A stretch of 64,000 nt of DNA from Muriicola jejuensis (GTDB lineage: Bacteria; Bacteroidota; Bacteroidia; Flavobacteriales; Flavobacteriaceae), in assembly GCF_010671595.1 (NCBI RefSeq), contig NZ_JAABOP010000005.1:62001-126000 (forward strand). The letters run 5' to 3'. The notes under the pieces were generated by a model. The model was not told the origin of the DNA and did no database searches. It saw only the letters and a program-made list of their open reading frames with translations. Made by a program: the position numbers and the translations under genes. This document shows, in pieces, positions 48,660 to 60,036 of the stretch (within the stretch, counting starts at the first letter, position 1; every line of letters starts with the position of its first letter).

Positions 48660-48667
48660 TATATTTG
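48660..48667 (+). promoter_or_regulatory. -7 box of the TPR-MORN/DUF3857 operon
   Basis: A perfect TATATTTG ends four bases before the ATG at 48672. If used, the transcript would be leaderless or nearly so. No matching -33 element is visible, so it may be chance. Confidence 0.3.
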
Positions 48668-48671
48668 CTTA

Positions 48672-51600
48672 ATGACCAAAAAAGTACTTTTTTTCGCCCT
48701 CTTCTCCTCACTTATATGTTTTTCTCAGGAAAAAATTCCTTTCGTTGATCTGGATGTGATCTCAAGTCTGGCAACTGAAAGCTCCAGCCAAGGAGATTAT
48801 GAGAAAACACTGGAAATTCTGAACAGAATACATAAAAATGACTCGGCCTATTGTTCCGTCTTAATTTCCAAGACTTATTATCTCATGACTTTGAAAAGAT
48901 ATGAGGAAGCTATTGAAGTGGCTGACCTAGGATTGAAGGATTCTTGTGGGGACAATGACCGGTCTTTTTTCGTAAATAAAGGAGTGGCGTTATTGAATCA
49001 AAACAATACCTCTGCTGCTTTGGAAGTTTTCAACGAAGGTATTATTAGATTTCCTAAAAACAAGCTCCTTTGGTATAACAAGGGTGTGTGTCTTGAGAAA
49101 TTAGACCTGATTAACGAAGCAGTAGAAGCCTATGAGATGGCTATGACTTTGGATCCTTTCTATAAAAATACATACCTCCAGCTCGGGAATTTATGTTATA
49201 AACAAGAGTTAATTAGTCAGGCAATGATGGCGTATAATCTTTATGTGCTTTTAGAACCTGACGCGGAAAATGGATTAAGTGTCTTACAATCATTAGACAA
49301 TCTGGTTAAATCGAAGAATTCCAATCAGAAAGATCCGAAAATTGAGATTTCACCTGATGATGAAATATTTGAAGAATCGGATTTAATTATCAATAATAGA
49401 ATTGCTCTGAATGAAAAATATCAAACGGGAAATGAAATAACCATTGCGCTTGTCAAGCAGAATCATGTTCTTCTTCAAACGTTAAAAGACCTTAAGGGTG
49501 AAGGAGGTATTTGGATTTCAAAATTCGTTCCTTTCTACAATTGGATTACCGAAAGTGAAAAATTCGATCCATTCATTTACACATTGTGCAACGCAATTGA
49601 GAATGAAAATTTTAAAAAGGTCGTAGAAAAAAATGAAAAGGAGATTAAGAGTTTTATTGATTCATTTAGGGCTAAATGGCTTTCTATTGCACAAAGAGAA
49701 AAGATCGCTCGCAATGGTAAGGACTTGGTGGTTACCAATTATTATTCAGATGGATATGTAAGTGGGATTGGCCAAATGTCAGGTGAGGTACCTATAGGAA
49801 ATTGGGAATTCTATAATTCAGACGGCAGACAAACGGCATATGGAAAATTCGATGAATCAGGAAATCGCGAAGGGCAATGGGTTTGGTTCAATCAAAAGTC
49901 GGACACTAGCGAGGTCGCATTTTATTCTTCTGGTAAGTTAAATGGTCCTAACAGACAATTCTATGAAAATGGACGTATAAAAATTTCAACTTCCTACAAA
50001 AATGATGAATTAGAAGGTGAATATCTCTATTACAACGAACTCGGTGCTCTGCTGCAGGAAAAGTCATATAAAGAGGGGAAATTGGAGGGAAATTTTGTGG
50101 CCTATTTCAATGTGGGGAAAATTATACCTGAATTCAAGAGGACGTATAAAGCGGGAAACATAGATGGAATAGCCTATGAGTATTTTGCTGACGGGAACGT
50201 TTATTCAGAGATATATTTTGACAATGGCCAGAGAAATGGACCAGAAAAGACCTATTATATAAATGGAAATTTATCCATGGAATTTATGAATGTCAATGGA
50301 GTATCGAATGGTCCGTATAAAACTTATTACTTCAGCGGCACGATCAAAGAAGAAGGCAATTTAGTAGAGGGCAACTACCACGGTAATTGGCGAACCTATT
50401 ATCAAGATGGCACCGTGCAGAGTATTTATAAATATGATAATGGATTAATCGATGGGCTTTATCAATACTTCGATGCGGATGGTAAACCCTACTATGAATA
50501 TGAGTATAGGAAAGGAGAAGTAATCGCTTACAGATATTTTGATAAAAAAGCCCGTATCCTTACTGAAAATCGCAAAAAAGGAGGGGAGTTTTACTATAAA
50601 GGGTACTCACCCCAGGGCGTTCTGACGTCTGAAGGTCTTTATGACATAAAAGGCGGTAAAACAGGTGAGTGGAAGTACTACTCAAATAATGGTACAATTT
50701 CCGCCCTAGGTATTTACCAAGAAAACAAGTTGGAAGGAAATTACACGAGCTACTATAAAAACGGGACAGTCGAATCTATCACTCCTTATAAGAATGATTC
50801 TCTAGCCGGCTATTACTCAGATTCTCATATTGATGGAAAACTAAAAACTCAAGGCTGGTATAAAGATAATGTTCAATCTGGCGAATGGAGGACCTACTTC
50901 GGAGACGGGACCTTAGAAAAAATAAATTTCTATCATAACGGACTTCTTCATGGGGAGCAAATTTTCTTTGCAGGTAACGGAAAGAAAATTAATCAAACCT
51001 ATTATCGATTTGGAAATCTATTGAAAGAAATTTTCCTTGATGCCAATGGGAAAATTTATGAAACCTTGAATTACGAGGATAAGTCCGGGAAATTTGATAT
51101 GCGAAGCAAGCATATCAATGGGGCTACCAATAAAATTATTTCCTATTTGAATGGAGTACCACATGGGCCGTACCAAAAATTTGATGCCTACGGAGTCTCA
51201 AGAATAAACGGTAATTTTCTGAATGGTTCGGAAAATGGGGAATGGAAATGGTATCATGCTAGCGGATCTATCGAACGCGAAGCTCCCCTGGTACTGGGTA
51301 CCCTGAATGGTGAAGTAAAAAATTATTACGAGAACGGGGGCATCGAGAGCACTTATTATTACGAATATGGTTCCTCTGAAAAAACATGGACCACTTACTA
51401 CGATAATGGTAACAAAAACACTTCTACTGAATATAAAAACGACCTACTCCACGGAAAGAAAGTGTTTTACAGTAGCGATGGACATACTCAACTCATCAGG
51501 TTTTATGAGCGTGGAAGGTTAATTGGTTACAGCTATCTGGATCAGAATTCAGAAGAATTACCTATGATTCCACTCGAGAATGAAACCGGTATTATTAGAG

Positions 51601-51959
51601 CCTTTTACAGCAATGGCAATCCTTCGAGAGAAATGGAATACGCAAATGGCGATATCGTCAATATCTACAGAGAATTCTATTACTCAGGCGGGCTAGCAGA
51701 GGAGATTCCGTTTCTATTGGGGGAATATCAGGGAACTAGAAAAGAGTTCTATGCTAATGGAACTCTTAAGAAAACAGAGGAATACAACTTGGGTGATTTA
51801 CATGGTGTCACAGAAGAATATTTTGAAAATGGCAGTCTGAAGAGGGTACAAAATTTTAGGAATGGAGAAAAAAATGGACCTACTATCCTCTACAACAAGG
51901 AAGGAAAAATAGAGTCGCAAGAGGAGTATTTTAACGGAGAAGTCATCTCTACCATATGA
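48672..51959 (+). CDS. Secreted TPR plus MORN-like (YwqK-type) repeat protein, 1095 aa
   Basis: A signal peptide (MTKKVLFFALFSSLICFSQ) is followed by TPR-like helical repeats (about 30-215) and a helical spacer. A very long array of ~23-residue MORN-variant/YwqK repeats then runs from about residue 350 to the end. The repeats have the form G-x-W-x-x-Y-Y-x-N-G followed by a YxNG or FxNG step. I count roughly 30. MORN repeats form long beta-sheet rods that bind membranes or proteins; the YwqK label 'antitoxin' is only a domain name. It is the first gene of a three-gene unit (seven bases to the next), clearly more AT-rich than its surroundings. Function unknown. Confidence 0.88.
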   Translation: MTKKVLFFALFSSLICFSQEKIPFVDLDVISSLATESSSQGDYEKTLEILNRIHKNDSAYCSVLISKTYYLMTLKRYEEAIEVADLGLKDSCGDNDRSFFVNKGVALLNQNNTSAALEVFNEGIIRFPKNKLLWYNKGVCLEKLDLINEAVEAYEMAMTLDPFYKNTYLQLGNLCYKQELISQAMMAYNLYVLLEPDAENGLSVLQSLDNLVKSKNSNQKDPKIEISPDDEIFEESDLIINNRIALNEKYQTGNEITIALVKQNHVLLQTLKDLKGEGGIWISKFVPFYNWITESEKFDPFIYTLCNAIENENFKKVVEKNEKEIKSFIDSFRAKWLSIAQREKIARNGKDLVVTNYYSDGYVSGIGQMSGEVPIGNWEFYNSDGRQTAYGKFDESGNREGQWVWFNQKSDTSEVAFYSSGKLNGPNRQFYENGRIKISTSYKNDELEGEYLYYNELGALLQEKSYKEGKLEGNFVAYFNVGKIIPEFKRTYKAGNIDGIAYEYFADGNVYSEIYFDNGQRNGPEKTYYINGNLSMEFMNVNGVSNGPYKTYYFSGTIKEEGNLVEGNYHGNWRTYYQDGTVQSIYKYDNGLIDGLYQYFDADGKPYYEYEYRKGEVIAYRYFDKKARILTENRKKGGEFYYKGYSPQGVLTSEGLYDIKGGKTGEWKYYSNNGTISALGIYQENKLEGNYTSYYKNGTVESITPYKNDSLAGYYSDSHIDGKLKTQGWYKDNVQSGEWRTYFGDGTLEKINFYHNGLLHGEQIFFAGNGKKINQTYYRFGNLLKEIFLDANGKIYETLNYEDKSGKFDMRSKHINGATNKIISYLNGVPHGPYQKFDAYGVSRINGNFLNGSENGEWKWYHASGSIEREAPLVLGTLNGEVKNYYENGGIESTYYYEYGSSEKTWTTYYDNGNKNTSTEYKNDLLHGKKVFYSSDGHTQLIRFYERGRLIGYSYLDQNSEELPMIPLENETGIIRAFYSNGNPSREMEYANGDIVNIYREFYYSGGLAEEIPFLLGEYQGTRKEFYANGTLKKTEEYNLGDLHGVTEEYFENGSLKRVQNFRNGEKNGPTILYNKEGKIESQEEYFNGEVISTI

Positions 51960-51966
51960 GAAAGGA

Positions 51967-53883
51967 ATGATTCGATTGTTTTTATGCCTGATTCTGCTGG
52001 GTCCGTCTCTCAATGGCCAGATTTCTTCCGAATCATTGAAGTATAGTTCTGAATATCCAAATGCCCATTCGGTCAGGCTCATTCAGGATATACAACTTAC
52101 CATCAAAGTGGTCAAAGGTGAACTGGATATAACCCAGGAAATACTGGAAGAAGACCTATTCCTGGATGAAAGTGCGACTCTTAAATCAAAAAGATCCTTA
52201 AGTTTTTCATCATTCTTTGATATTGATGAAATTGAAGCATCGTCATTTATTTCCCGGAATGGTAAAATAGAGGAGCTCAAGGTAGAAGAGTTTAAAGAAA
52301 AGGATGAACTGGACGATTCCTTTTACGATGATTCCAGGTCCATTAATTTTGTATTTCCCGCCCTGGAAAAAGGTACCAAAACCCGTTTAAAATATATCAG
52401 AAAGATAAATAATCCCAGATTCCTTACGCCCTTCTATTTTGGAAATATCTTCCCTACTATAACAAGCAGGTTTACGGTGATCGCTGATAACGAAGTAGAT
52501 TTGGTTTTCAATGACTTCAACACGGAAAATACAGCGATTGATTTCCATAAAAAAGAAGGCAGGAAGACAACTACTTACATCTGGGAAGTGCGGAATCTGG
52601 ATGAGTTCGAATTTGAAGATAATGCTCCCAATTATAGAACTGTGGTACCCCACATTCTACCCGTAATTAAGTCTTATAAATCAGGTGGTGAGATCCGGCC
52701 TTTGCTCGGGCAAGTTCAAGATCTTTATAACTGGTACTATTCTCTTATTGAAAACATAAATAATGATCCACCTGAGGAAGAACTTCAATTGTTGGTGGAT
52801 AGCATTACCAACGCTCAATCAACGGAATTTGAAAAAGTAAAAGCGCTCTACTATTGGACGCAGGAAAATATAAAATACGTGGCTTTCGAATATGCGCTTG
52901 GGGGATTTATCCCAAGGGATGCAAATGAGGTTTTTGTGAAGAAGTATGGAGATTGTAAGGATAATTCCAGTATTCTGAATAAAATGCTTCAATTGGCGGG
53001 TATCGAAAGTTACCTTACCTGGATAGGCACCAGGGAAATTCCTTATTCATATTCGGAAATGCCCACGCCGTTAGTAGACAACCATATGATCCTATCGTAT
53101 ATAATAAATGATTCGACCTATTTCCTAGACGCTACAGGCAGGTATAATCCTATTGAGTTCCCCAGTTCGTTCATACAGGGAAAAGAGGCTCTAATTGGTT
53201 TAAGCAAGGATAGATACAAGATCGCAACCGTCCCCGTGGTTGACGCTGAAAAAAACAGTTTCCAAGACCAAACCGTTCTGCATATTAATGATGGAACCAT
53301 CATTGGGAATACTCAAGTAAAGATGGCTGGTTATGTAAAGATGGATTATCTCTATGATCTGGAAAAAGTCAAGAGTAAAGACAAATCGATAGAGTATCAT
53401 AATTCCAAATTCACTAAAGGAAATAACAGCTTTTTGATAACAGATCTCTATGCCGAATCTGCAGACCCTTATGATGAATTCCAGGATCTTACCTATGAAT
53501 TTAAAATATCCAATTATACCAAAACCCTGGGAAATGAGCTTTATATCAACTTGAACCTGAACAAAAAAGCCCTTGAATTCAAATCCGAAGAAGATCGTAA
53601 AAATCCAGTTGAGTATGAGTATAAGCATTTTTATGAATATTCAACCATCTTGGAAGTTCCGGAGGGATATTACGTTGAATATCTGCCAGAAGATATTGAA
53701 GTCAAAAGTGATCTATTTAGCGCCTCTGTTCAATATGAAAAAAATGAAAACACTTTGAAATATTACCATAAGATCAGGCTGAACTCCTTGGTGGTAGATC
53801 TCGAAGGACAGAAAGCAATAAATTCATTGATTGAGAAAGTAGAACAAGCATATATGGAAGTTGTTGTGCTTTCAAAAATTTAA
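51967..53883 (+). CDS. DUF3857 / transglutaminase-like protein with intact catalytic triad
   Basis: The 638-aa protein has a signal peptide (MIRLFLCLILLGPSLNGQ) and an N-terminal DUF3857 beta domain (about 30-215). A transglutaminase-like core follows with Cys330 in KYGDCKDNSS, His373 in VDNHMIL and Asp388 in YFLDAT, the papain-like triad. A C-terminal beta domain completes it. Relatives may act as periplasmic proteases, amidases or cross-linking enzymes, but no member's substrate is firmly known to me. It begins seven bases after the MORN gene and ends 11 bases before a second DUF3857 gene. Base composition is AT-rich like its two partners. Confidence 0.88.
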   Translation: MIRLFLCLILLGPSLNGQISSESLKYSSEYPNAHSVRLIQDIQLTIKVVKGELDITQEILEEDLFLDESATLKSKRSLSFSSFFDIDEIEASSFISRNGKIEELKVEEFKEKDELDDSFYDDSRSINFVFPALEKGTKTRLKYIRKINNPRFLTPFYFGNIFPTITSRFTVIADNEVDLVFNDFNTENTAIDFHKKEGRKTTTYIWEVRNLDEFEFEDNAPNYRTVVPHILPVIKSYKSGGEIRPLLGQVQDLYNWYYSLIENINNDPPEEELQLLVDSITNAQSTEFEKVKALYYWTQENIKYVAFEYALGGFIPRDANEVFVKKYGDCKDNSSILNKMLQLAGIESYLTWIGTREIPYSYSEMPTPLVDNHMILSYIINDSTYFLDATGRYNPIEFPSSFIQGKEALIGLSKDRYKIATVPVVDAEKNSFQDQTVLHINDGTIIGNTQVKMAGYVKMDYLYDLEKVKSKDKSIEYHNSKFTKGNNSFLITDLYAESADPYDEFQDLTYEFKISNYTKTLGNELYINLNLNKKALEFKSEEDRKNPVEYEYKHFYEYSTILEVPEGYYVEYLPEDIEVKSDLFSASVQYEKNENTLKYYHKIRLNSLVVDLEGQKAINSLIEKVEQAYMEVVVLSKI

Positions 53884-53894
53884 TCACAGTATAT

Positions 53895-55865
53895 ATGAAA
53901 ATAGCATTGAGAATTTCCATTCTATTTCTAACCGAGCTTATGCTCGGGCAAAGTGTGCCTTTTTACGAAAGTTATTCCTGGGAGGAATATCCAAAATACG
54001 AGGTTAAAGATCTCACTTCCGAAATTAAGAGCCTTAGAGAAAAATTTGTGATTGAGTTTTTTTACACAGAAGATGGTTCACTAACGGAATACTATCTGGA
54101 GCACAAGGCCCTGTGGTTGAATAGCGACGACAAAATTGAAGACTATAATAAAATCTATCTCCCCTATTCCTCAAATTCTGAGTTGATAGTAAACAAAGCC
54201 AGGGTGATCAACAGGAACGGCAAGACGATCGAACTAGACAGTTCCAAAATTTTTGTCGCAAAAGATGAGGAAACAGGAAAGAACTACAAATACTTCGCCT
54301 TTGAAGGGGTCGAAAAAGGAAGTATAATCGAATATTACTACGTCGAGAAAAAATACCCGGTATACAAGGGAACAGCTTTCAGATTACAGGGTTCATATGA
54401 TAAAGAAAATGTGATGTTTGATCTCTTATCTCCCGAAAATCTGTTTTTTGAATTTAAATCTTACAACGGTCTTCCAGAGGTTGAAAAAGATACTCTTGTG
54501 AAAGGTAAACTCAACTGGAAGCTTCGGATAAAAGAAATATCTGGCCTCGAAGAAGAGGATCAATCTCCATATCAGGCTTCAAGAGGGATGTTGGTGTATA
54601 AATTAGATAAGAACCTCAAAAATAATATGTCGGATATTTCTTCCTATGGGATAGTATCTCAAAATATTCACGAATATTATTACAAAGCTCAATCTAAAAA
54701 AGTGGATGGGTCCATCAATAAATTCATTGAACAACATATCGGTGGAGACAAAAATCTGCCAATGGATGAAATCATTAGAACTCTCGATAGAGCTATTAAA
54801 ACACAGATCTATAAATCTGTAGGCCAGGGAGAAGAACTGGAGAATCTGGAGCTCATTCTAAACAAGAATGTTGCGAATGCAACGGGGCTTATTAAACTGT
54901 ATGCAGCAATCTTCCAACACCTGGATATAGATCATGAAATCGTGATAACCTGTGATCGGTCTGAACAAAAATTTGACAAGGAATTCGAAGCCAATAATTT
55001 TTTGACAGACTTTTTATTTTATTTCCCTGCGACAAATTCCTACCTCTCCCCTACAATTACGAACTCCAGATATGGATTTCCCCCGGGAAATCTCACGGAC
55101 ACCTATGGGTTATTCATTAAGGAAATTAAGGTCGGTGATTTTACTTCCGGACTTGGAAGGATCAAATTCATAGAACCGGTAAAAGCAGAAAAAACAGTCG
55201 ATAGAATGACGATAGATGTCAAATTTGACGATTCGGATCCCGTTAAAAATACCGTGTCACTTCAGCGCTCTTTTTCTGGATACTACGGGATGTCTATTCA
55301 TCCCTACATGGGATTAATTAAGGAAATGGACAGGGATGAATTAATAGAAAATCTGGCCAAAACAATGAATAAAAATGTTGATGTGACCAAAAAAGAGGTT
55401 CACAACCAAGGACCTGAAAATTTTGGTGTGAAACCCCTTGTATTTGATATTGAACTGGAATCAAGGTCTTTTACTGAAAAGGCCGGCAAAAAATTACTTT
55501 TTAAGGTAGGAGAACTCATTGGTCAGCAAATACAGATGTATCAGGAAAAGAAAAGGGTTCTGCCTCTTGAAAATGAATTTATGAGGAGTTATTATCGAAC
55601 CATTAAAGTTCAACTTCCCGCAGGCTACAAAGTAGTAAACCTGGATGATATAAATATAAACAACGTCTATGTAGAAGGTGGACATGAAGTTTTAAGTTTT
55701 AAATCTTATTATTCATTGGATGGACAAACTCTTACCATTACCGCCGATGAACACTATAAACGCAATATTATAGATACACCGATTTTTGAAGATTTCCGAA
55801 GGGTGATTAACAGTGCTGCGGACTTCAATAAAATCACCCTCATTATTGAACCCACTGAAAAGTAA
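53895..55865 (+). CDS. DUF3857 protein with degenerate transglutaminase-like core
   Basis: The 656-aa protein has a signal peptide (about 1-19), the same domain order as the preceding gene and a recognisable DUF3857 N-terminus (YLPYSSNSELIVNKARVINR). In the core, the segment LNKNVANATGLIKLYAAIFQ aligns with the partner's GDCKDNSS region, with Ala329 at the cysteine position. The histidine and aspartate positions fall in NNFLTDF and SYLSPT, with no His or Asp in place. It therefore looks like a pseudoenzyme that may bind rather than cut. No frameshift or stop is seen, so it is under selection as a protein. It is the third gene of the AT-rich operon. Confidence 0.82.
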   Translation: MKIALRISILFLTELMLGQSVPFYESYSWEEYPKYEVKDLTSEIKSLREKFVIEFFYTEDGSLTEYYLEHKALWLNSDDKIEDYNKIYLPYSSNSELIVNKARVINRNGKTIELDSSKIFVAKDEETGKNYKYFAFEGVEKGSIIEYYYVEKKYPVYKGTAFRLQGSYDKENVMFDLLSPENLFFEFKSYNGLPEVEKDTLVKGKLNWKLRIKEISGLEEEDQSPYQASRGMLVYKLDKNLKNNMSDISSYGIVSQNIHEYYYKAQSKKVDGSINKFIEQHIGGDKNLPMDEIIRTLDRAIKTQIYKSVGQGEELENLELILNKNVANATGLIKLYAAIFQHLDIDHEIVITCDRSEQKFDKEFEANNFLTDFLFYFPATNSYLSPTITNSRYGFPPGNLTDTYGLFIKEIKVGDFTSGLGRIKFIEPVKAEKTVDRMTIDVKFDDSDPVKNTVSLQRSFSGYYGMSIHPYMGLIKEMDRDELIENLAKTMNKNVDVTKKEVHNQGPENFGVKPLVFDIELESRSFTEKAGKKLLFKVGELIGQQIQMYQEKKRVLPLENEFMRSYYRTIKVQLPAGYKVVNLDDININNVYVEGGHEVLSFKSYYSLDGQTLTITADEHYKRNIIDTPIFEDFRRVINSAADFNKITLIIEPTEK

Positions 55866-56173: not shown

Positions 56174-58561
56174 TTAGGTAGTGATCTCCTCGTACACCCG
56201 ACGGTCTTTCTTGTCGCGGTTTTTATTTACCATAGTATCCTGTGCTTGCATAGCCTGCCACTGCATCTTCGCGCCGTAGCGCCTTACTTGGTTGCTTTGC
56301 GTAGGGTCCATGACCAGTAAGTAGATCCATTCATTTTCTAGCAGCGTTTTCAGATGGTCATTCCTATTGAGGATCTCCTCCACCCTGCTTTCCGGGGCCT
56401 GGATCAGGACCGACAGGCGGAGGGGCTGGTGGTACATCTCATCGTCTGTTTGTTTGACGGATTGAAGAGGAAGACCCATCTTCAGGTCGCCCCCGTTCCC
56501 CTGTACCACCCCGTAGCGGCCGGTGATGTTATGGGTGATCTTGGACCCTCCTCCGAATTTTTCATTGTCTACGGTGGAGAAGTAATAGTGGTTGTTGATC
56601 CACTGGGTCACTACCATGGGGCCCTGCATGATACCCTCCAGGGCTGCACCGGTAGGATCCAGCTTCCAGTCATAGGAGTGCAGGAAACAACGCCCGCCCA
56701 GGTTGCTGTCGGCAGTGAGGTGGCGCGGCCCCACCACAAATCCGGCGTTCTTGGCCAGACCCCATTCGGGTCGGGTTTCCGCCCAGTGTGTAGCATTGGT
56801 ATCCGCTTTGGTGATCCCACCTTTAAAGACCCCTAACCTGTCGAGAGTCGCTGTTTCCCTCGCCTTTTGAAGATCTGTCTTTAGCCTCCTGAGGGCATCC
56901 CTGTGAGATTCCGGTACATCGGCATCAAAGACGACGATCTCATCGGTAGTGGTGTTGTGCTCTGCCCCAATGAATACGGTGTTCTTCGGGATCTCGATAT
57001 GGTGTTCCCTGCTCAGGACCTCCCTCACTTCCGGCAGGTTGGCCAGTTTGGCCAGCATCCGGGCGTTATGCCTGCCCGGGCTCGCTGCACAGGCCCCACA
57101 GTCCAGGCTGGATCCATAAGGGTTGTTGGCCGTATGGCTGCCATGTCCTGCAAAGAGGACCAGGGGGGCAAATTTTCTCCATCCCAGGAGGTCGAAGGCA
57201 GATTTTACAATACCTACCTTTTCATTGAGGGAAATTCCGGTTTCGCAATCGTGATGTTGATGTATCTCAGGTTCACAAAAGCCCTCGTAGCTTTCCTGTT
57301 CATTGAACTTATTGCGTTTTACATAGCTGGGCGCCAGAGTCCGTCCCAGCATATAGAACCCGTAGAAGATCCCCGAACCCTCCACAAATCCAAAGGTGGA
57401 AGGGAGCATGTTCTTCATCCGCTTCAGGAAGTACGCCCAGAAATTAAGGACGGCGTTTTTGCGCTCCCAATCCTTTTTCTCTTTTCCTTTATCGGCCTGG
57501 GGCGATTCAGTTACCTGATACGCGGAATTCAGGATGGGCGGGCAGGATTTGCGGCTGAGGCCGTCATTGAGGTCCTCATAGTCCATGGCGATACCGAAGA
57601 ACCCGGCATAGCCGAAGGTCTCGTACTTCCCCTTGGATTCCACATGCCGGCGGATGAGTTCCGAACGGGTATCTATACAAAAGACGAGCTGGGCATCCGG
57701 GGTGTCTTTCCGCATGTCAGAATGGCCAACCGAGTCTTTTTTACTGACCAGTTCGTGCACCATCTTGTGCTGCCAGCTCTTTTCCCAGGCACGGAGCCAT
57801 ATCAGGCCGAGTTCTGTCACTTCCGCATTCGAGCCGATCTGATTTTCCGATGGCAATAATGGAAGTTCAAGTTGGCGTGCGAGTACAAGCCGCACTGCCA
57901 GATAATCTTCCAGGCTTATGGGATAGGCCTGCTGCCAGGAGGAGTTTGTTTCCGTCCTGTGTTTTATATATCCTACCCAACCCGGCAAGGCGCCGAAATG
58001 GTACTGGAAGATCCGGGTATACGCATCCTCTTCAACCCCGGTGAGAGCATATTCCAGGGCTTCTGAAGCCGATTTTGGAAGCGCCCTCTTTTCTATTTTG
58101 CCTACTTCCCCATCGTAATTCACCAGCGTCCTCCAGGCTCCGTAAAATCCTTGTTCCTTTCCGGGGATGTCCCATTCGGCCAGGCCTTCATCCATGAAGG
58201 CGGTCAGCCACTTTACAGTAATCCTGTCGAGTTCACCCACCTCATTCAACTTCTCTTCCTCCTTCACAGAGGCCATCAGCTGCAGGTAGTATTCGGGTGA
58301 TTTGTCATACCCCCCTTCGGCCAGCAACTGCAGGAGCTCTTCCTCCCCTATTTCCCTTGCTTCCCAAGCCTGTCGCAGCATGGATACATCCGGCAATACC
58401 CTGGCCTGCAAGAGTTCTTCAGCAGACTGTATTGCCTCCCTGAAGCTCATTTTCTCGAGCCCGGTAAGTGGGTTGGAGGTGACAAAGGAATACAGGGGCC
58501 AGGTCTTCCCGATGATTGCAGCAGCTTCTTCAACGGATCTTTTTATGGACTTTTGGCTCAT
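56174..58561 (-). CDS. dabA: Inorganic carbon transporter subunit DabA (DUF2309)
   Basis: The 795-aa protein has the carbonic-anhydrase-like zinc site of DabA: Cys295 and Asp297 in FCIDTRSE, His473 in GHGSHTANNP and Cys488 in LDCGAC. The 15-residue step from His to the second Cys matches characterised DabA. DabA with the membrane partner DabB is thought to hydrate CO2 in one direction, driven by an ion gradient, and so accumulate bicarbonate. In a heterotroph this feeds carboxylases such as PEP or acetyl-CoA carboxylase. It starts five bases after the dabB stop. Confidence 0.93.
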   Translation of the reverse strand: MSQKSIKRSVEEAAAIIGKTWPLYSFVTSNPLTGLEKMSFREAIQSAEELLQARVLPDVSMLRQAWEAREIGEEELLQLLAEGGYDKSPEYYLQLMASVKEEEKLNEVGELDRITVKWLTAFMDEGLAEWDIPGKEQGFYGAWRTLVNYDGEVGKIEKRALPKSASEALEYALTGVEEDAYTRIFQYHFGALPGWVGYIKHRTETNSSWQQAYPISLEDYLAVRLVLARQLELPLLPSENQIGSNAEVTELGLIWLRAWEKSWQHKMVHELVSKKDSVGHSDMRKDTPDAQLVFCIDTRSELIRRHVESKGKYETFGYAGFFGIAMDYEDLNDGLSRKSCPPILNSAYQVTESPQADKGKEKKDWERKNAVLNFWAYFLKRMKNMLPSTFGFVEGSGIFYGFYMLGRTLAPSYVKRNKFNEQESYEGFCEPEIHQHHDCETGISLNEKVGIVKSAFDLLGWRKFAPLVLFAGHGSHTANNPYGSSLDCGACAASPGRHNARMLAKLANLPEVREVLSREHHIEIPKNTVFIGAEHNTTTDEIVVFDADVPESHRDALRRLKTDLQKARETATLDRLGVFKGGITKADTNATHWAETRPEWGLAKNAGFVVGPRHLTADSNLGGRCFLHSYDWKLDPTGAALEGIMQGPMVVTQWINNHYYFSTVDNEKFGGGSKITHNITGRYGVVQGNGGDLKMGLPLQSVKQTDDEMYHQPLRLSVLIQAPESRVEEILNRNDHLKTLLENEWIYLLVMDPTQSNQVRRYGAKMQWQAMQAQDTMVNKNRDKKDRRVYEEITT

Positions 58562-58566
58562 TAGGT

Positions 58567-60036
58567 TTAGGATTTATAGGTTAAAATTGATTTTTTAAAC
58601 GGTTGAGACAGGTTGAGCAGTTTTACATACAACCAGGGTACCTGTCGGTAAATTCCCAATTTCATGATAAAAAACCCTATCAGGAATACGAGCCCGAAAC
58701 CGATCTCCAGTGCTGTTAATGGAGTGGGAACAGCCACCAGCGGCAGGTCAGACATCAGTTGGGTAACCCCGTTGTAGAGCAGGGCGTACAGCCCGATCCC
58801 AGATACAAACAGGATGGATGGTAGGAGGATCTTCTGCACCCCGGTTAAAATCTGTTGTTTCACGATGTTGTAAGTGATCTGACCTACGGCTATTGCCACG
58901 ATCAGGGTCAGGAAAATACTGCTGTCTGCCTGGGTGCCTTTTCCGGTGAGGAAGATAAAGAGACCGGCTCCAAGCGTCCCGAATATAAGGACCGCAATAG
59001 CCTGTATAGGTTTGATCCGGATATTTGGTGGAGATTGGGGAACGGAATAGGTAATTTCTTCCCCTGAGGACAGGAAGAGGTAGGCCTTGTAAAACCCGTG
59101 CAGGATGAGGTGGGCCACTGCGGCATTAAAGAAGCCAAGGCCACATTGCATGATCATAAAGCCCATCTGAGCGATGGTAGAACAGGCCAGTTTTTGTTTG
59201 ACGTTCACCTGTAGCAGCTTTGTGAACTGGGCGATGACTGCGGTCAGTCCACCGATCACAAAGAGCAGGTCGAGCGTATGAGAGGCGAAGATCAGGGTCG
59301 AAAAAAGGGCCAGCAGGATGCCTGATCCATTCACAAAGCCCGCGTGCATAAGGGCTGAAGCCGGTGTTGGAGCTGTCATGGAAGACAGCAGCCAGCGATG
59401 GAAGGGATAAATGGCCGATTGTATCATGGCCGCCACGATCACCAGGAGGCCTGATAGGACGAGGGTCCACATGGGCAAATCAACGAGTGCATTCATGAGC
59501 CCGCTTACGGTATTCTGACCGCTTTGATAAGCGAGCAGAGCGATCCCTAAACCGAGCAGGGCCGAACCCGACAGGAAGTAGCGCTGTGTAAATTTAAGGG
59601 CCTCCCTGGCTTCACCCCAGCTGCGGTTCACGCCAATGAGGCGGGCCATAAAAAGCCCCATGGCCGTCCAGCTCAGGACAAACACCAGGAGATGTTCCGA
59701 CAGAACCAGGGCGGTTACAGACAGGGTAAAGCCCAGACAAAGGAACATAAAGCGGTTGTGGTAGCGGAATCCTTTGAGATACCTTAGGCTGTACGTCCCT
59801 ACGATCGCGCTAAAAAATGCAACGGTAGCGCAGATCAGAGCAGTGAATCCATTGACCCGGAAAAGGGTATTGTAATTCCATTGAGGGGCCCCTGAGTAAA
59901 AGTACACCAGGCCAGCAAGGCTGCTCAAAAAAAATACCCAAAAGAAAGCGGTGATCCCTTTGGGTATGGCGGCAGAGTTTGTCTGACGCTGGATGCCGTC
60001 ACCGGCTAATCGTTCTTGATGTTTGAGTTTATTCAT
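58567..60036 (-). CDS. dabB: DabB, NADH-quinone oxidoreductase subunit L-like ion-conducting subunit
   Basis: The 489-aa membrane protein has about 13 hydrophobic segments of the proton-pumping NuoL/Mrp family. PFHRWLLSSMTAPTPASALMHAG is split across the conserved helix and lysine/histidine track, followed by KLACSTIAQMGFM. In this context it is the cation-coupled partner of DabA rather than part of complex I, since no other nuo gene is nearby. It is transcribed first in the operon, from a promoter region at 60123-60195. Confidence 0.92.
   Translation of the reverse strand: MNKLKHQERLAGDGIQRQTNSAAIPKGITAFFWVFFLSSLAGLVYFYSGAPQWNYNTLFRVNGFTALICATVAFFSAIVGTYSLRYLKGFRYHNRFMFLCLGFTLSVTALVLSEHLLVFVLSWTAMGLFMARLIGVNRSWGEAREALKFTQRYFLSGSALLGLGIALLAYQSGQNTVSGLMNALVDLPMWTLVLSGLLVIVAAMIQSAIYPFHRWLLSSMTAPTPASALMHAGFVNGSGILLALFSTLIFASHTLDLLFVIGGLTAVIAQFTKLLQVNVKQKLACSTIAQMGFMIMQCGLGFFNAAVAHLILHGFYKAYLFLSSGEEITYSVPQSPPNIRIKPIQAIAVLIFGTLGAGLFIFLTGKGTQADSSIFLTLIVAIAVGQITYNIVKQQILTGVQKILLPSILFVSGIGLYALLYNGVTQLMSDLPLVAVPTPLTALEIGFGLVFLIGFFIMKLGIYRQVPWLYVKLLNLSQPFKKSILTYKS

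Follow-up and report, generated by a model that had tools for sequence, protein, structure and literature searches.

Proteins that combine DUF3857 with a transglutaminase-like domain, and proteins built of MORN_2 repeats, occur widely in Bacteroidota but have hardly been studied; in the literature searched, a single paper mentions DUF3857. For the first kind, the only solved relative that was found by sequence is 3kd4 (BDI_1141 of Parabacteroides distasonis, titled "putative protease"), which has the DUF3857 plus transglutaminase-like architecture of the protein called A below and is matched by A in sequence. The second kind includes the LIC20035, MORN_2 and YwqK-type repeat proteins, which have MORN_2 repeats in common with the protein called M below. 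Beta-hairpin repeats as in M are also present in the eukaryotic MORN1 rods (6t69, 6t4r) and in the Rhs/teneurin shells (8qjd, 6fay). We analyzed a 64-kb stretch of Muriicola jejuensis DNA (hereafter the window), in which M and A are encoded together with a third protein, B. The locus differs from the systems above in several respects. 3kd4 is a single protein, and its record contains neither a dead partner nor a MORN rod. In contrast to MORN_2/YwqK-type proteins, M has TPR repeats and a conserved helical domain, a fixed length and other partner genes. At three further loci (L206-L208), TPR repeats, DUF3857 and a transglutaminase-like core are fused in one chain of about 1250-1310 aa, but these chains have no MORN rod, and their enzyme part is no more than a distant relative of A. 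No description of M-A-B was found in the literature searched, which covers few subscription papers, and within that literature the unit is undescribed.

Conservation of the three-gene unit in Bacteroidia

The three genes of the window are as follows; the gaps between them measure 7 and 11 bp.

48672..51959, + strand: M, exported TPR/MORN_2 rod protein P0001, 1095 aa (ORF, Pfam, AlphaFold)
51967..53883, + strand: A, exported DUF3857 and transglutaminase-like protein P0002, 638 aa, triad intact (ORF, Pfam, alignment)
53895..55865, + strand: B, exported DUF3857 protein P0003, 656 aa, transglutaminase-like site dismantled (ORF, Pfam, alignment)

The original prediction had described three exported proteins of these lengths and spacings, and the ORFs are as it said. 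Since the genes on either side lie on the opposite strand, M-A-B is a single block of transcription direction. In the whole genome (3.31 Mb, 26 contigs) DUF3857 has two matches, A and B only, and MORN_2 was found in one place outside M, a 153-aa frame. Sigma-70-like sites numbered 30, about equal to shuffled sequences (mean 24.8, sd 5.8), and a terminator scan gave 5 sites against 5.5 in shuffles. The motif TATATTTG, similar to the Bacteroidota −7 element, TANNTTTG, was seen at 48660-48667, 4 bases 5' of the start codon of M; such a position would imply a near-leaderless transcript.

The N-termini of the three proteins, as read from the sequence, resemble signal-peptidase-I signals with Gln at +1 (FS^Q in M, NG^Q in A and LG^Q in B). 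No sorting-domain model, by which type IX secretion cargo would be recognized, was among the NCBIfam matches of M, A and B, and no lipobox was found in their orthologues. Taken together, these signals with Gln as the first mature residue and the lack of a sorting domain and of a lipobox suggest that the products are periplasmic. The rod had been suggested as a possible surface scaffold, a location that these searches do not bear out; the preference for the periplasm rests on the absence of known sorting signals.

To survey the distribution of the unit, we took the best relatives, L035 and L036, together with three A+B pairs, built profiles of B, A and M, and searched the B profile alone against genomes of the order (n=396), a phylum sample (n=395) and GTDB contigs. 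It matched in 29/396 genomes of the order (Flavobacteriales) and in 15/395 genomes of the phylum sample. The GTDB contigs yielded at least 480 relatives, and the best 80 are nearly all from Flavobacteriaceae/Flavobacteriales, with one Cytophagales record. When 112 B genes were read in their context, A was directly upstream on the same strand in 111, the gap being mostly a few bases or a short overlap; some genomes are possibly counted twice among these 112 loci, two collections overlapping (e.g. L085/L127, whose contigs are equally long). M lies upstream of A in 90 of the 103 A+B pairs that have at least 3.3 kb of DNA there, and full M is missing from the other 13 despite the room; in one of these (L106) M fragments are found in broken frames. 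In the survey of 396 genomes, B is present in every genome that has M (22/22, hypergeometric P 2e-30). The phylum sample extends M-A-B beyond the order, to five loci (L223-L226, L228) in other families of the class; at some other loci of that sample A and B occur as a pair, B occurs by itself, or A stands beside a longer B. M-A-B therefore spans Flavobacteriales and other Bacteroidia.

Several variants were observed besides. At L230, L231, L232, L039 and L040, A is accompanied by a longer B (about 724-741 aa) whose likeness to the usual B is mainly C-terminal. At L181 a complete M-A-B lies downstream of an A+B pair, with both on one strand. The copy in Aureicoccus marinus (L161:6510-10860) is apparently broken, M being a 3' remnant only and A being split over two frames.

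It could be argued that the three genes came together by chance in an AT-rich region. However, in 21 loci compared, flanking genes are common to subsets only, while M and A are present in all and B in all except one contig that ends before B. This adjacency in unrelated surroundings, with A next to 111 of 112 B genes and B in all M genomes, leaves a chance grouping practically no probability, and it was rejected. That the three genes form a real unit, as originally predicted, is thus upheld by a trio that is kept while its neighbours vary, with M at 90 of 103 A+B pairs and recurrence beyond the order. The tree distances of M, A and B are also correlated over 89 shared loci (Mantel r 0.946-0.963; permuted maximum 0.26), a congruence that is expected under plain host descent as well.

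Composition and origin of the locus

GC across M-A-B is 0.35-0.39 (0.37 overall) versus about 0.50 in both flanks, in agreement with the AT-richness noticed originally. The GC3 values lie between 0.37 and 0.39 (M 0.368, A 0.390, B 0.379), versus a mean of 0.610 (sd 0.065) for the 37 other window genes. Over 100 loci the difference in GC3 between trio and flank has a mean of −0.011 (sd 0.042), and the value obtained here, −0.242, is the most extreme and far outside the range of the homologous units. AT-richness alone is nevertheless weak evidence of transfer, because homologous units elsewhere also lie slightly below their own flanks in GC. Third positions as AT-rich as those of M-A-B were also seen in the gene cut by the window edge (1-1058, GC3 0.361).

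The comparison covered eight congeners, of which four have a completeness of 90% or more and no more than 5% contamination. A gave no match in any of the eight in a single-protein search, and B gave none in a profile search. In congener G006 (L202) the window genes of 42.3-48.5 kb and 60.3-64 kb have homologues in the same order, and the matching site is without M-A-B and without the DabA/NdhF pair. The absence of B from all eight congeners together with this empty site makes it likely that M-A-B was recently acquired, as judged by sequence comparison. Horizontal transfer had been suggested from composition; it fits the GC3 outlier as well as the absence and the empty site. Alternatively, M-A-B may have been lost in the congeners instead of being acquired here. 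The findings are most simply read as acquisition from a low-GC relative, and the donor was probably a low-GC member of Flavobacteriaceae. The nearest locus in the M, A and B trees (89 shared loci) is L112, a Cellulophaga MAG record. A search of each edge of the unit on its own gave neither direct nor inverted repeats of 10 bp or more, and the window has a single tRNA, which lies about 7 kb from M-A-B. A DabA + NdhF-like pair (inorganic carbon transporter) with host-like GC3 adjoins M-A-B at 56174-60036; in congener G004 its homologues are on another contig.

The intact enzyme and its partner without the catalytic Cys

A matches both DUF3857 (PF12969; 58.5 bits, cut-off 24.6) and Transglut_core (PF01841; 33.0 bits, cut-off 23), and its Cys-His-Asp triad C330/H373/D388 is invariant in the alignment. 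From the core match and the triad, A is classed by sequence in the transglutaminase-like superfamily. B has DUF3857 as its only Pfam match (52.1 bits, cut-off 24.6), and a DUF3857 match was found in 61/61 B members. The catalytic positions of the two proteins are the following.

52954..52956, + strand: Cys330 codon of A, invariant 107/107
53083..53085, + strand: His373 codon of A, invariant 107/107
53128..53130, + strand: Asp388 codon of A, invariant 107/107
54879..54881, + strand: residue 329 (Ala) of B, aligned to the catalytic Cys, Cys in 0/111 orthologues
55008..55010, + strand: residue 372 (Asp) of B, aligned to the catalytic His, D or E in 99/111
55047..55049, + strand: residue 385 (Ser) of B, aligned to the catalytic Asp, S or A in 88/111, D in 12

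Instead of Cys, B proteins mostly have E, S, D, N or T, and going by its sequence B lacks the catalytic Cys of an active transglutaminase-like enzyme. One active and one inactive copy had been foreseen, and the alignments agree with it.

One possibility is that B is a decaying duplicate of A, which the lost active-site residues would suit. Against this, the loss is common to all 111 B proteins, and B has invariant residues of its own, many of them in the C-terminal part. Its predicted model is confident and full-length (pLDDT 92.4), with 3kd4 as the best solved match, and B is predicted to keep the transglutaminase-like fold. Purifying selection across lineages was also looked for and found: in close pairs the dN/dS of B is 0.03-0.11, like that of A, and B is under purifying selection as A is. 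Decay is therefore rejected as highly improbable.

A similar arrangement was observed outside the trio. In ten distant tandem DUF3857 pairs (L041-L049, L053), adjacent and on the same strand as A+B are, Cys, His and Asp/Glu are all present in the first protein. In the second, Cys is missing, His is replaced by Tyr (once by Phe), and Asp is mostly retained. Unlike in M-A-B, no M rod was detected alongside them. The like pattern in these ten pairs, a small sample, suggests that active/dead pairing is older than the trio. Such DUF3857 pairing may be phylum-wide.

The rod protein and a proposed function for the module

M matches MORN_2 (PF07661; 118 bits, cut-off 29.6, E 1e-35) and TPR models, and its AlphaFold model (pLDDT 92.1) has the TPR part followed by an unbroken hairpin rod. 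Three parts can be distinguished.

48750..49310, + strand: TPR superhelix of M, aa 27-213 (Pfam TPR matches, AlphaFold helices)
49359..49694, + strand: conserved helical domain of M, about aa 230-341, linking the TPR and MORN parts; Y250 and Q263 are invariant in it
49695..51953, + strand: uninterrupted MORN_2 beta-hairpin rod of M, made of 63 strands in about 31-32 hairpins (Pfam, model)

Over 89 loci full-length M has 1084-1124 aa. The rod segment has 745-760 aa in 89/89, although over this segment the orthologues are on average about 40% identical to the window protein. That rod length is kept despite such divergence suggests, in a comparison confined to M orthologues, that length itself is under selection.

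Known types of repeat protein were considered for M and rejected. As a LIC20035 family adhesin (NF033566) it scores 114.6 bits, under the curated cut-off of 250. Membership of a YwqJ/YwqK toxin-antitoxin system was discarded, no deaminase toxin gene being adjacent; the neighbours are DUF3857 genes, an alpha/beta hydrolase gene and DabA. With MORN1 and Rhs/teneurin structures the query-length TM-scores are 0.07-0.14, which indicates that the overall shape of M is unlike theirs, and a cocoon of the Rhs/teneurin type was dismissed on these very low scores.

We propose that M-A-B is an operon-like module making a three-protein periplasmic machine, in which the rod positions the enzyme/pseudoenzyme pair; we give this proposal an even chance of being right. 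It draws on features of the sequences, namely co-inheritance, gene order, the triad of A, the Cys loss and purifying selection in B, and the fixed rod length, from which the complex, its substrate and its chemistry are putative. A and B would form a heteromer, in which A would act as a thiol peptidase or acyl-transferase, and B as a pseudoenzyme may bind or present the substrate or regulate A. M would bind the A/B pair, perhaps via its TPR part and conserved helical domain. Its rod, roughly 30 nm long if each of the 31-32 hairpins adds about 1 nm, may be a ruler or scaffold that sets the distance of the enzyme in the cell envelope.

A co-transcribed unit need not form a complex, and M and A/B may be only co-regulated, acting in the same condition and never touching. 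A+B pairs do occur alone, and among the relatives sampled, distant tandem DUF3857 pairs are often seen with no M detected. Indeed, the 13 A+B pairs with no full M despite room indicate that M is dispensable for whatever A+B do alone. However, in 22 genomes M always occurred together with B, and gene order and close spacing are conserved across several families and orders; we consider co-regulation only to be rather unlikely.

M may instead be the substrate, as was also suggested originally, with A cross-linking or processing the rod and B binding it. The three genes together in the order M-A-B, the intact thiol triad in A and a few nearly invariant Gln of M (Q19 and Q263, with Q183 and Q940 conserved in >85%) would agree with this. 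The possibility is weakened by the M orthologue alignment, in which no Lys position is conserved in >85%, and Q19 is the expected first mature residue. In addition, the solved relative 3kd4 is named a putative protease, and A+B pairs occur without M. We consider M as substrate unlikely, even more so than co-regulation. Of the original interpretation, the conserved unit and the active/inactive pair stand and the transfer is likely, while the surface location, cross-linking and the rod as substrate are conjectural.

As a conserved three-gene unit, M-A-B provides each of the orphan families with a partner and with a role that experiments can test. The fixed length of so long a repeat protein calls for a mechanical reason. 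In its widest form, which is possible but doubtful, M-A-B would be an undescribed machine of the Bacteroidia envelope, its fixed-length rod acting as the ruler for an obligate thiol-enzyme/pseudoenzyme pair, and active/dead pairing would be general for the DUF3857 proteins of the phylum. The systematic pairing of enzyme and pseudoenzyme, if true, would be a general rule for the DUF3857 family.
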